In this document: piece after piece, positions 2,888 through 13,427 of the stretch | How the letters are laid out: each line of letters starts with the position of its first letter | How positions within the stretch are numbered: the first letter of the stretch is position 1 | Source of the DNA: Candidatus Peribacteria bacterium RIFCSPHIGHO2_01_FULL_55_13 | Lineage (GTDB): Bacteria > Patescibacteriota > Gracilibacteria > Peribacterales > Peribacteraceae | Assembly: GCA_001788925.1 (NCBI GenBank) | Contig: MFXS01000011.1 | Coordinates: forward strand, 8,916 to 41,866 | Length of the DNA stretch: 32,951 nt | Direction: 5' to 3' | Program-made: the position numbers and the translations under genes | The notes under the pieces: model-generated | What the model was told of the DNA's origin: nothing | The model's input: the letters and a program-made list of their open reading frames with translations, nothing else | Database searches by the model: none

Positions 2888-2940
2888 GTGGATGGTGGAT
2901 GGTGAATAGTTCTCAAAACGATGCACCATGCACCATCCAC
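2888..2940. repeat. GGATGGT-word hairpin between tuf and rpsJ
   Basis: A 17-bp stem with one mismatch: 2888-2904 (GTGGATGGTGGATGGTG) pairs with 2924-2940, loop 19 nt. Each arm is a tandem of a 7-bp word. It has no T-tract, so it is probably not a strong terminator, and rpsJ is likely to be cotranscribed. Confidence 0.85.
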
Positions 2941-2976
2941 TATCTATCCATCACCTCCGCTCTTTTCCTCCCTTCT

Positions 2977-3402
2977 ATGAACCCTACGAAGAAGCCTGCC
3001 GCTCCGAAAAAGAAAGCCGCTCCGAAGGCTAAATCCGATGCAAAGGCGGAAGTGGGGACAAAGTCCGCTGAGGCGGCCAAGAAGATGGAATCGGGAGTAA
3101 AAGGAATTCGCATCCGTCTTTCGGCATTCGATCATATCGTGCTCGATGAAGCTGCCGGAAAGATTGTGGAGACAGCCGAGCGCAGCGGCGCCATCGTCCA
3201 CGGCCCGATTCCTTTGCCTACAAAGATCCGCAAGTTCACGGTGAACCGCTCCACCTTCAAGCACAAAGACGCGCGCGATCAGTTTGAAATGCGTACGCAC
3301 CGGAGATTGATTGATCTGGCGGAGACGACGTTCAAGACGATTGAGAGCTTGCAATCTTTGAGTTTGCCGAGTGGTGTGGATATTGAAATTAAAATGGGGT
3401 AA
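2977..3402 (+). CDS. rpsJ: Ribosomal protein uS10 with a Lys/Ala-rich N-terminal extension
   Basis: uS10 is a small-subunit head protein that also serves as NusE in antitermination. The core from about residue 42 is standard ([48 protein letters not shown]). It is preceded by about 40 residues rich in Lys, Ala and Pro ([10 protein letters not shown]), making 141 aa against about 102 usually. The start at 2977 is the first ATG after the tuf hairpin; an earlier in-frame codon at 2899 lies inside the hairpin. There is no SD, only a pyrimidine tract. rplC does not follow: the next gene is convergent, so rpsJ is cut off from the rest of an S10 operon. Confidence 0.95.
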
Positions 3403-3417
3403 AAAATTGAGAATTGA

Positions 3418-3477
3418 GAATTGAGAATTGAGAATGGAGAATTACATTCTCAATTCTCCATTCTCAATTCTCAATTC
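3418..3477. repeat. GAGAATT-word perfect hairpin between rpsJ and rnc
   Basis: 3418-3443 and 3452-3477 are perfectly complementary over 26 bp with an 8-base loop. The arms are tandem copies of a 7-bp word (GAGAATT), and further copies extend left to about 3407. It fills the gap between two convergent genes and may end both transcripts, although the stem is AT-rich. Confidence 0.95.
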
Positions 3478-4167
3478 CTATGCCCATTTCTTCGCTTTGA
3501 GCGCCGCCTTCGCAGCATCCAGCTCTGCACGCTGCTTTGAGCTTCCCGAGCCTTCGGCAATTTTTTCCGTGCCAATGAGCGCCGCGGAGATAAATTTCTT
3601 ATCATGGTCCGGACCTGCTTCGCTGACCACTTCATAATGCGGCGTAACGCCAAGAAGCTCCTGGGCCTTCTCCTGGAACATGCTTTTCTCATCGCGATGC
3701 TTTCCGGCCGCGAGCAACTCCCGTAGCCGCGCGAGAATAAATTCCTGGCAGAAACGTTGTGCGGCATCGAATCCCTGATCCATGTAAATAGCTCCTATGA
3801 GCGCCTCCAGCGCATTGGCAAGCGTGGAAGGCTTCTCGCGGCCACCGCTGGCCTCCTCCCCGCGGCTCAGGTGCAGATACGCTCCAAGCTTCATTTCCTG
3901 TGCTACGAAAGCCAGATGCTCGCCTTTAACGAGCGCAGAGCGGTAATTCGTCAACTCCCCTTCGGGCTTGTCGCTCACACGGAAGAGGTATTCCGTCGCA
4001 ACCAGTTCCAGAACGGCATCACCGAGGAATTCAAAGCGCTCATTGTGCTTCTTAAGCCCAGACCGGCGGACTGCGCTTCGGTGCGTCAGCGCTTCAAGGA
4101 GAAGATCTTTATCACGAAAGACCACACCGATGTTTTTCTCCAGCGTTACGAGAGGGGCGGGGGGCAT
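3478..4167 (-). CDS. rnc: Ribonuclease III
   Basis: This double-strand-specific endoribonuclease processes rRNA and structured mRNA. It is 229 aa, the usual length. The catalytic signature ERFEFLGD is at 43-50 (E46 and D50 being metal ligands), a second motif ANALEALIGAIYMD follows, and a C-terminal double-stranded RNA-binding domain ends in AELDAAKAALKAKK. The Asn in ANALEA replaces the Asp of E. coli ADTVEA, a variation I believe is common outside proteobacteria. It is the last gene of a minus-strand cluster behind nusB and converges on rpsJ. The abundance of hairpin repeats around here would give this enzyme many potential substrates (inference). Confidence 0.96.
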   Translation of the reverse strand: MPPAPLVTLEKNIGVVFRDKDLLLEALTHRSAVRRSGLKKHNERFEFLGDAVLELVATEYLFRVSDKPEGELTNYRSALVKGEHLAFVAQEMKLGAYLHLSRGEEASGGREKPSTLANALEALIGAIYMDQGFDAAQRFCQEFILARLRELLAAGKHRDEKSMFQEKAQELLGVTPHYEVVSEAGPDHDKKFISAALIGTEKIAEGSGSSKQRAELDAAKAALKAKKWA

Positions 4168-4180
4168 TGGTTATAGGGTA

Positions 4181-4284
4181 GCGAAGGTTGCGGGGTTTGC
4201 GAAGATAAGGGTTGCGAAGGTTGCGCAGTTTGCGGGGGTTGCGGAGAACTCCGCAACCTTCGCAACCTTCGCAAACCCCGCAAC
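4181..4284. repeat. GGTTGCGAA-word hairpin between nusB and rnc
   Basis: Tandem GGTTGCG(A/G)(A/G) and GGTTTGCGA words in the left arm (4181-4247) face their complements in the right arm (4250-4284), including a 19-bp match to GGTTGCGGGGTTTGCGAAG. The same word family recurs inside folP (7197-7236) and upstream of purM (23890-24000). Confidence 0.85.
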
Positions 4285-4692
4285 CTATTTCTTTTCTCCA
4301 TGCGCAATCGCATTCAATACCCCATTTACAAACTTCCCACTCTCCGGCGTCCCGAACTCTTTCGCAATCTCAATCGCCTCGTTCATGACCACGGCCGGAG
4401 GTGCATCGTTGCCGAACAACAGTTCGAAGCAGCCGAGAAGGAGCGTGCATCGTGAAACAGGATCCATACGGTCAAGCGTCCACCCCGGAGCGTGTGTTTG
4501 CACCATAACCTTAATCTCCTCCTCTTTCTTGAGCACTCCGTCCAGGAGCGTACTCGCAAACTCCAGATCAGCCTCCCCGTTCTGGCCGCCGCAATTGCGC
4601 TCTAAAGAGCTGTCTGTATCAATGGGCCGTGCATCGCGCTCGAAGAGCGTTTGCATGACGGCGATACGGGAGAGGTGTCTGCGACGCGCCAT
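4285..4692 (-). CDS. nusB: Transcription antitermination factor NusB
   Basis: NusB binds boxA RNA together with uS10 (NusE) in rRNA antitermination. It is 135 residues, normal length. It starts with the typical SRIAVMQTLFERDA helix and has the conserved C-terminal block VMNEAIEIAKEFGTPESGKFVNGVL. The ATG at 4692 immediately follows the stop of the upstream small gene, so translation is probably coupled. Its partner uS10 is encoded about 900 bp away on the other strand. Confidence 0.94.
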   Translation of the reverse strand: MARRRHLSRIAVMQTLFERDARPIDTDSSLERNCGGQNGEADLEFASTLLDGVLKKEEEIKVMVQTHAPGWTLDRMDPVSRCTLLLGCFELLFGNDAPPAVVMNEAIEIAKEFGTPESGKFVNGVLNAIAHGEKK

Positions 4693-11986: not shown

Positions 11987-12035
11987 GGTTGAAGTTTAGT
12001 GCAAAGGGAATCTGGAGTGAATGGAGGCTTAGACG

Positions 12036-12120
12036 ATGAAGGAAACCAGGGAAACCAGGGAACAGATTCTATTCTTGTGTGGCAGCTGTTCCTTGGTCTC
12101 CTTGGTTTCCCTGGTCTCCT
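12036..12120. repeat. GGAAACCA(A/G)-word hairpin downstream of gmk
   Basis: GGAAACCAGGGAAACCAGGG with ACAG in the left arm faces CTGTTCCTTGG...TTTCCCTGGTCTCC in the right arm. The same word family forms the hairpin at 12727-12823, so gmk is bracketed by related elements. Confidence 0.85.
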
Positions 12121-12712
12121 ATTCTCGAATCACCCTCTCCACTTCCCCAATCGTCCCCGCAATCTTCCCGTCATGGTTCACCACCTGCGCATCGCAAAGT
12201 TTGGCATACGTAAGCTCCCGGTCCATGCTCGCGATCCGGCGTTCCAATTCCTCCGCACTGATCGGCGCGCGCTTGGTGATACGGGCGATAAGCTGCGCAC
12301 GGTTTTCCGGCATGATGAAAATCGACTGTAACTGGTAAGGAGCATCGGGATTCCGGAAAAACTGATGCGTCCGGATGCTGTCGTATCCCTGCACATCCAC
12401 TTCACGAACGACTGTTTTTCCTGATTGAATCGCCGGGAGGATTTCCTCGATGAGCGTTCCGTAGCGCGCTCCGCCATGCACTACAGCCGACTCAAGGACT
12501 TTGCCCTCCGCGAGCATCGCATCAAAGGATACTTCGGTGACAAAGTGATACAGATCATCGCCTTCGCCCTTGCGCCGCTCACGCGTAGTCGCCGACTTCG
12601 GAAACACGAACTCCGGGTGCTTTCGGCGCAGCTCTTTCAAGATAACGCTTTTACCAACGCCACTGGGGCCCATCAGAAGCACAAGTTTTCCGGCAGTCAT
12701 ATTTTGCTGCAT
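12119..12712 (-). CDS. gmk: Guanylate kinase
   Basis: Phosphorylates GMP to GDP. 197 aa from the ATG at 12712. The P-loop GPSGVGKS is at residues 15-22, followed by KSATTRERRKGEGDDLYHF (the GMP-binding ATTR...GE...Y.F pattern) and the VVREVDVQGYDSIR block. A second ATG at 12700 (MTAGK) would also fit the family. I prefer 12712 because TACGAT (12724-12719) lies exactly 6 bases upstream, as in many leaderless starts here. Far-upstream in-frame codons read through a repeat hairpin and give ETKETKETRE-like nonsense. Confidence 0.92.
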   Translation of the reverse strand: MQQNMTAGKLVLLMGPSGVGKSVILKELRRKHPEFVFPKSATTRERRKGEGDDLYHFVTEVSFDAMLAEGKVLESAVVHGGARYGTLIEEILPAIQSGKTVVREVDVQGYDSIRTHQFFRNPDAPYQLQSIFIMPENRAQLIARITKRAPISAEELERRIASMDRELTYAKLCDAQVVNHDGKIAGTIGEVERVIRE

Positions 12713-12726
12713 GTGCTGATCGTATC

Positions 12727-12823
12727 GTGAGGAGACCAAGGAAACCAAGGAGACCAACGAACAGGCGCTATACAGCAACAGCATCTGTTCCCTGGTTTCC
12801 TTGGTTTCCTTGGTTTCCTCTTC
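12727..12823. repeat. GGAAACCAA-word hairpin upstream of gmk
   Basis: A 36-nt arm beginning GAGGAGACCAAGG faces a complementary arm ending CCTTGGTTTCCTC with about four mismatches. The loop is about 22 nt. The unit is a 9-bp word. Confidence 0.9.
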
Positions 12824-12835
12824 CCGGATCATGCC

Positions 12836-12864
12836 TTGCTCAAAATAATAATTCGTGGTATCAT
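12836..12864 (+). promoter_or_regulatory. Promoter of the putative long ncRNA
   Basis: TTGCTC (12836-12841), 17 bp, TATCAT (12859-12864), with TG one base before the -10 (extended -10). Predicted start is near 12871. No plausible protein start follows on this strand. Confidence 0.6.
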
Positions 12865-12870
12865 ATCCTA

Positions 12871-13427
12871 ATTGCTCTTTCGCATCCTCCCGACCCAAGT
12901 CACGTCAGCTTAAGCTGACTGTAACAAGTCACGTCAGATTCATCTGACGTGACAAGCAGGGAGAAGTGAGAAGTGACACCGCGCTACGGTGGGCGAGACG
13001 GCTTACGCTTTCTCTTCACCATCGGGCTCGGCCATCCGAGGGCTAGCCCCTCGGCCCCGCACCTTTTTCCGTCGATCCTGGAAGCGGAAAAAGGTGCGGG
13101 GGGAGTCACTTCTCTCTCCTCCCTGCTTACTCTGCGGCTTGACCACCGCACCGTAGGTTCCCTCCCGTTTTCTATTGAAAGGGGGAGGTGATCTGCCCTT
13201 TGGTCCCGCACCCGCGGGACCAGGAAAAAACCAACACACACTCGACGTGTTGCCGTCGTAAAACCGCAACAAGCAGGAAACAAACACAAACAGGGTGATG
13301 GCCCGTAAAACCATCAAAAGGGTAGGGAGCGCACGGACAGGTCGCCCGTGCACCGCTCGCCCTTCACCTCGGTGAAGGCCAGCACCGAGGACACCAGTCT
13401 CTCAAAAAGAAGGGTGTCCTCTTTTTT
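12871..13427 (+). ncRNA. Putative structured non-coding RNA, about 560 nt, unidentified
   Basis: About 560 bp lacks a credible gene but is dense in complementary pairs ending in a textbook terminator. Seen: palindrome GTCAGCTTAAGCTGAC; an 11-bp stem (12928-12938 with 12943-12953); a 23-nt closing stem (12955-12977 with 13105-13127, two mismatches) enclosing a perfect 17-bp hairpin (13055-13071 with 13085-13101); a hairpin GGTCCCGC/GCGGGACC near 13203-13222; an extended GAGCG-CACGG/CCGTG-CGCTC hairpin near 13325-13365; and CCTTCACC/GGTGAAGG. I searched by eye for the conserved cores of RNase P RNA, tmRNA, SRP RNA and 6S and did not find convincing matches. A divergent housekeeping RNA (RNase P RNA being the first suspect) or a new class is possible. 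Confidence 0.6.
13387..13427 (+). terminator. Intrinsic terminator of the putative ncRNA
   Basis: GAGGACACC (13387-13395) pairs perfectly with GGTGTCCTC (13413-13421), followed by six T. The orientation fixes the plus strand as the transcribed strand. Confidence 0.88.

Follow-up and report, generated by a model that had tools for sequence, protein, structure and literature searches.

The question raised by this locus is whether the gene-free stretch beside the guanylate kinase gene, gmk, in a Peribacteraceae genome (Patescibacteria/CPR; 1.17 Mb, 43 contigs) contains a gene for a structured RNA and, if so, whether that RNA is a diverged housekeeping RNA or belongs to an undescribed class. The initial annotation had left this choice open. 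The window, i.e. the whole stretch of DNA that was analysed, is 32,951 nt long, and the RNA gene occupies window positions 12,856–13,427 on the (+) strand (~555 nt). Its limits, its fold, a pseudoknot, a kissing loop, a leader motif and its single-copy synteny are shown by comparative sequence. These results support an undescribed class, though there are no transcription data.

The RNA gene and its elements

The RNA gene is divergent from gmk, and on its 3′ side it stops short of a convergent ORF whose function is unknown. The elements identified, with window coordinates, are as follows. Our own numbers for genomes (G), loci (L) and families (f) are used where they are needed to distinguish entries.

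12119–12721 (−): gmk (guanylate kinase; Pfam PF00625, E 1.8e-23), divergent neighbour, outside the RNA
12856–12864 (+): extended −10 promoter element, TGGTATCAT, TGnTATAAT-like, in the same position before the leader in the listed Peribacteraceae homologues
12874–12884 (+): BoxA-like leader motif, GCTCTTTCGCA, directly downstream of the predicted transcription start
12887–12896 (+): P1 5′ strand, CTCCCGACCC, partner of 13320–13329
12901–12953 (+): two lineage-specific leader hairpins, from the fold of the source genome, not in aligned relatives
12956–12977 (+): P2 5′ strand, GCAGGGAGAAGTGAGAAGTGAC, near-invariant within the family, covarying columns 10:156, 11:155 and 12:154
12978–13100 (+): P2 interior, with P3/P3a (12978–13031), the P4 hairpin (13036–13054) and the variable P5 hairpin (13056–13100)
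13105–13126 (+): P2 3′ strand, GTCACTTCTCTCTCCTCCCTGC, pattern in 37/74 family genomes with ≤3 mismatches
13133–13150 (+): P6 hairpin, loop UUGACCA, kissing partner of the H loop
13156–13222 (+): two lineage-variable hairpins, from folds and alignment
13225–13241 (+): A/C-rich unpaired linker 1 (ACAAACACA type), in nearly all homologues
13243–13271 (+): candidate second pseudoknot, CGACG/CGTCG and TGTTGC/GCAACA
13279–13292 (+): A/C-rich linker 2, AACAAACACAAACA, conserved
13293–13315 (+): H-type pseudoknot, S1 GGG/CCC and S2 GATGG/CCATC
13320–13329 (+): P1 3′ strand, GGGTAGGGAG, partner of the P1 5′ strand
13329–13351 (+): H hairpin, loop CAGGUCG, kissing partner of the P6 loop
13387–13427 (+): intrinsic terminator, 9-bp stem then TTTTTT

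The initial annotation had described a gene-free stretch with RNA features, and this held, as all of the elements that it named are present. Its −35/−10 pair can be found in the sequence (TTGCTC, 12836–12841, and TATCAT, 12859–12864, spaced by 17 bp). However, the promoter claim held only in part, because the conserved part is the extended −10, and a simple sigma-70 scan gives no −35/−10 call. The nested fold is also present, as a 22-position stem (12956–12977 with 13105–13126) around a near-perfect 18-bp hairpin (13056–13100), but its designation as the closing stem failed, as this stem closes only the internal domain P2. The true closing helix is P1, formed by the leader (12887–12896) and 13320–13329. 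The further hairpins and the terminator, which ends with TTTTTT at 13427, were confirmed.

From the sequence alone, transcription is predicted to start at ~12870, about 6 nt past the extended −10. This element is also found in 31 further family or class loci, which were retrieved by means of it. The 5′ to 3′ order is promoter, leader, P1 5′ strand, P2 arm (P3, P4, P5), P6, A/C-rich linkers, candidate pseudoknot, H-type pseudoknot, P1 3′ strand, H and terminator. In general form, the promoter is TGnTATAAT, the leader GAUUYGUUCUUUnACA, the linkers are of the ACAAACACAAACA type and the P1 3′ strand is GGGUAGGGAG. Homologues measure about 280–530 nt from the start to the H hairpin. Some subclades have lost P1, H and the kissing loop of P6: H is absent jointly with this loop in L023, L034, L038, L049 and L050, and P1 is absent in a minority of homologues with short leaders. 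The terminator stem and U-run are also found on the (+) strand in L002, L003 and L004. The arrangement of the second pseudoknot is repeated in the same three loci, and this remains a candidate, recognized by inspection without statistics.

The stretch has an MFE z of −12.0, and none of 100 shuffles was as stable. Fold energy by itself is weak evidence, and conservation and covariation in relatives are strong evidence. ORFs of 72–130 aa that overlap the stretch cross variable hairpins, and homologues of the RNA differ from one another by numerous indels. A coding reading was rejected by inspection, with no formal coding test.

Two copies of a palindromic repeat (AAGGAAACCAAGG / CCTTGGTTTCCTT) flank gmk, at 12732–12818 and about 12010–12110. 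A similar palindrome is in the same position in G002 (L002), and it resembles an interspersed palindromic repeat.

Distribution

More than 60 homologues were collected. A DNA search found the RNA in 3 of 4 genus mates (72–78 % identity), and a motif search of 84,980 GTDB species recovered 13 stretches, nearly all from entries titled Candidatus Peribacteria or Peregrinibacteria and one from an entry titled only Patescibacteria. R1, a covariance model built on the 3′ domain, matched 60 of the 70 family genomes at E≤0.1, and about 53 at E<1e-3 after removal of one false match. A diverged copy lies beside gmk in G008, G012, G018, G059 and G077, which are family genomes without a clear R1 match. 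In the other R1-negative family genomes, the contig ends at the gmk flank or there is no convincing gmk. Pattern loci L029, L037 and L040 and model matches L149 (G152) and L150 (G071) were judged by eye to be due to chance and were excluded.

We note that eight family genomes (G003, G040, G041, G051, G060, G071, G078 and G082) are without the RNA and have only weak gmk matches; G071 is a single contig. Joint loss and assembly gaps are both possible.

Outside the family, R1 gave a single match in about 161 other class genomes, and this was judged false. R1 finds no homologues there, and the class-wide claim rests on synteny and shared architecture. Diverged homologues were found beside gmk at L128, L131, L132, L158, L187–L195, L197–L203, L205 and L207, which represent families f2, f4, f7, f9, f18 and f21 of the class, i.e. 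at least six families beyond Peribacteraceae. They have in common the same promoter, A-rich linkers, a (U)AGGGA element and, mostly, pseudoknot or kissing pairs. L129 (f16) and L204 (f23) are possible homologues only. Several other families of the class (f3, f6, f11 and f20) gave no sign of the RNA next to gmk, and neither did 19 gmk loci from other classes of the phylum.

Covariation and tertiary contacts

Covariation analysis with related genomes, which the initial annotation had proposed as a check, was strongly positive. In an alignment of P2/P3/P4 from 18 sequences, 89.6 % of cells are paired and 21 pairs have changed on both sides. The covariation score is 0.282, versus 0.160 for shuffled alignments (0/500 as high), and pairing falls to 39–53 % in slid registers. 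Helices 2, 3 and 5 of the P2 interior include 3, 4 and 6 pairs, respectively, with changes on both sides. For P1, a genome's own duplex has an energy of −12.7 kcal/mol, versus about −9.8 kcal/mol when strands are swapped between genomes (0/10,000 permutations); examples of the strand pairs are CUCCCUGUCUU/AGGACAGGGAG and CCUGUCUUAU/AUAAGACAGG. Pairing of the leader with the A/C-rich linker was also considered, and no consistent register was found.

The H-type pseudoknot was recovered in an unsupervised search of 37 homologues, with a mean score of 22.5 versus 10.5 for shuffled sequences, and 25 of the 37 beat all 20 of their own shuffles. In seven loci (L008, L023, L031, L036, L050, L056 and L057), this search preferred an alternative, namely pairing of the S2 hairpin loop with the P1 3′ strand or neighbouring bases. 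This may represent a conformational switch.

Six families retain complementary P6 and H loops although the loop sequences differ between them (0/20,000 permutations). In most of Peribacteraceae the kissing pair is UGACCA/UGGUCA, with variants AGACC/GGUCU, CGACC/GGUCG, GACU/AGUC and GACG/CGUC. The pairs found in other families are listed below.

L207: UCGACUC/GAGUCGA
L132: ACGACGA/UCGUCGU
L131: CCAAUC/GAUUGG
L158: CCAACA/UGUUGG
L201: CCGGCUA/UAGUCGG

No clear P6/H kissing was found in L203 and the f9 clade. As the homologues are kin, the permutation counts overstate independence, and the limits of helices and loops were partly set by hand, with kissing loops set by hand throughout. Despite this, a kissing interaction retained with different sequences in six families is hard to account for otherwise.

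The BoxA-like leader

The published BoxA consensus, GYTCTTTAANA, was derived from gammaproteobacteria (PMC5725501), and our BoxA call is built on it. Among 64 homologous leaders, 54 match it at ≥8 of 10 positions (shuffles: mean 5, maximum 10) and 34 at ≥9 of 10 (shuffles: mean 0.46, maximum 3), with five leaders matching at 10/10. The leader of the source genome matches at only 8/10, and the leaders of L131 and L132 lack a BoxA-like motif. No other unpaired element of the RNA is as well conserved as this motif. In L188, L192 and L198–L200, the promoter is further upstream, yet the BoxA-like motif is kept as a unit, and it is therefore not merely initially transcribed sequence. In another genome of the family (G048), 800 kb contain 513 extended −10-like sites, and none of these is followed by a 9/10 BoxA match.

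BoxA is otherwise mainly a ribosomal RNA signal. Upstream of the G048 23S rRNA gene, the best BoxA match is 8/10, some 455 nt away, and in the source genome (G000) the 5′ end of the 16S rRNA gene is off the contig. The genes rpsJ (S10/NusE), rnc and nusB are at window positions 2899–4692, within about 10 kb of the RNA.

The 16S rRNA of G000 (L214 1–1201, G000:C7) has ...CCTGCGGATGGAACATTTCCTT as its apparent end and lacks the CACCTCC that normally serves as the anti-Shine-Dalgarno sequence, and no 23S follows. This could be genuine, but an intervening sequence or a misassembly could also be behind it. In G048, a group I intron lies within the 23S rRNA gene (L259 12328–15838), and 5S comes after this gene. 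The 32 kb of upstream sequence that was read gave no 16S match, so that the rRNA operon is apparently split.

Searches for known RNAs

Another check proposed was a search of Rfam. Rfam 15 (4,227 families, including raiA, OLE, ROOL and GOLLD), searched with permissive filters, gave no match in the window that reached the gathering cut-off, and nine homologous loci searched at E≤0.05 gave one tRNA and nothing else. The permissive matches, for the most part eukaryotic microRNA models that fell on the unrelated inverted repeat at 12732–12818, were dismissed as chance.

The common housekeeping RNAs were considered individually. RNase P RNA (RF00010) is not in the window and there is a separate copy elsewhere in the source genome, at G000:C26:3–314 (E 2e-17), which is below the cut-off because the contig end cuts it. 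For tmRNA (RF00023), ARAGORN and Rfam were negative in the window, and above-cut-off tmRNAs are on other contigs of the RNA-bearing genomes G002, G004, G013 and G014. For 6S RNA (RF00013), there was no match in the window or elsewhere in its own genome, but G026 has a 6S-like match (E 2.8e-7, below the cut-off) as well as this RNA. SRP RNA (RF00169) was matched neither in the window or homologues nor in 11 genomes of the class. SRP identity is hence excluded only through the missing Rfam SRP signature, which leaves one formal gap, though we think this identity very unlikely. A literature search found no paper on Peribacteria and non-coding RNA, and nothing else of relevance.

Alternative explanations

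One alternative is that a known housekeeping RNA, SRP RNA above all, has diverged strongly here and that its usual copy is difficult to detect. In its favour, SRP RNA is unaccounted for, as RF00169 finds none in the 11 class genomes. However, neither the window nor the nine homologous loci gave a useful Rfam score, and RNase P RNA, tmRNA and 6S-like RNA are elsewhere in RNA-bearing genomes. SRP RNA is one long rod with a GGAA-type domain IV, and the architecture found here does not fit it. Class genomes that lack the RNA beside gmk (e.g. G025) also lack an RF00169 match. We regard this explanation as very unlikely. Equally improbable is a cis-acting element for gmk expression, whether a shared promoter region, an antisense RNA or a leader. 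Every flank that was read places the RNA next to gmk in divergent orientation, and genomes without the RNA are mostly without a gmk match too, but the promoter points away from gmk, the RNA has a terminator of its own ahead of the following gene, and the covariation is internal to the RNA.

Two further possibilities are unlikely but harder to dismiss. The RNA could be a decoy regulator, in which BoxA binds NusB-S10 or the Nus complex and tunes rRNA antitermination or the supply of S10, the body serving only for stability. The 5′ motif is indeed the most conserved single-stranded part, and the RNA is short enough to reach its own terminator. However, covariation extends across the whole body, and a kissing loop and a pseudoknot are kept over families, none of which a simple decoy needs. 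Alternatively, it could be a scaffold that assembles from RNA only, with P6/H kissing between molecules; homo-oligomers made of RNA only are described for OLE, ROOL and GOLLD (PMC12286853). It is large and ornate with no obvious catalytic core, which would suit this, but comparative data cannot distinguish intramolecular from intermolecular kissing, and there is no sequence relation to OLE, ROOL or GOLLD.

Proposed role and significance

The explanation that we prefer, with moderate confidence, is that the gmk-divergent RNA represents a previously undescribed class of large structured RNAs and is independently transcribed and trans-acting, probably transcribed with the aid of BoxA and NusB-NusE, and probably of the RNP-type housekeeping kind. 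Its existence and fold are well supported. Transcription, NusB-NusE binding and the RNP role are inferred; the BoxA/NusB-NusE step is plausible, without transcription or binding data, and the biochemical function has not been shown.

Under this proposal, transcription would begin about 6 nt after the extended −10, and the BoxA-like element on the nascent 5′ end would probably recruit NusB-NusE(S10), letting RNA polymerase read through a long, untranslated and strongly folding template, as it does for rRNA. The RNA would form a ring closed by P1, with the long P2 arm, A/C-rich single-stranded linkers and the H-type pseudoknot beside P1. The kissing helix would dock the 3′ hairpin H on P6, and the intrinsic terminator would end the transcript. 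Most likely, it would form the RNA core within a housekeeping RNP or take part in the biogenesis of ribosomes, though there is no direct evidence for a partner protein or activity. A bolder reading, which is no more than possible, is that this is a non-ribosomal non-coding RNA under rRNA-type BoxA antitermination that is essential, e.g. for ribosome biogenesis, throughout one class of Patescibacteria.

The large structured RNAs of bacteria fall into very few known classes, and new biology has repeatedly come from those whose function was not known. Genomes of the candidate phyla radiation are tiny, and retention of an RNA of 300–550 nt over one of its classes implies an important job. The BoxA-like leader offers a concrete handle for testing; if confirmed, it would mean that antitermination of the rRNA type also serves a non-coding RNA that stands alone. 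The survey of gammaproteobacterial BoxA targets, by its own statement, left out non-coding RNAs (PMC5725501). The alignment and element list are sufficient for building an Rfam family.

Comparison with known RNAs

The gmk-divergent RNA is similar in length to tmRNA and, like it, includes pseudoknots, but no tRNA-like domain or tag frame was found in it. With the raiA motif RNA (ModT), it shares being chromosomal, structured, trans-acting and conserved over large bacterial groups. However, it has no Rfam match, and the raiA motif RNA is described from Bacillota and other phyla (PMC11706538) and is not known to us from Patescibacteria. OLE, ROOL and GOLLD are likewise large ornate non-coding RNAs with long-range contacts, but the gmk-divergent RNA matches none of them in Rfam and is chromosomal, single copy and beside gmk. 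A BoxA-like motif that lies at the transcript's 5′ end and precedes a long-range helix is shared with the BoxA leaders of rRNA operons (and suhB), but the transcript here is not an rRNA or an mRNA, and its length is just about 300–550 nt.
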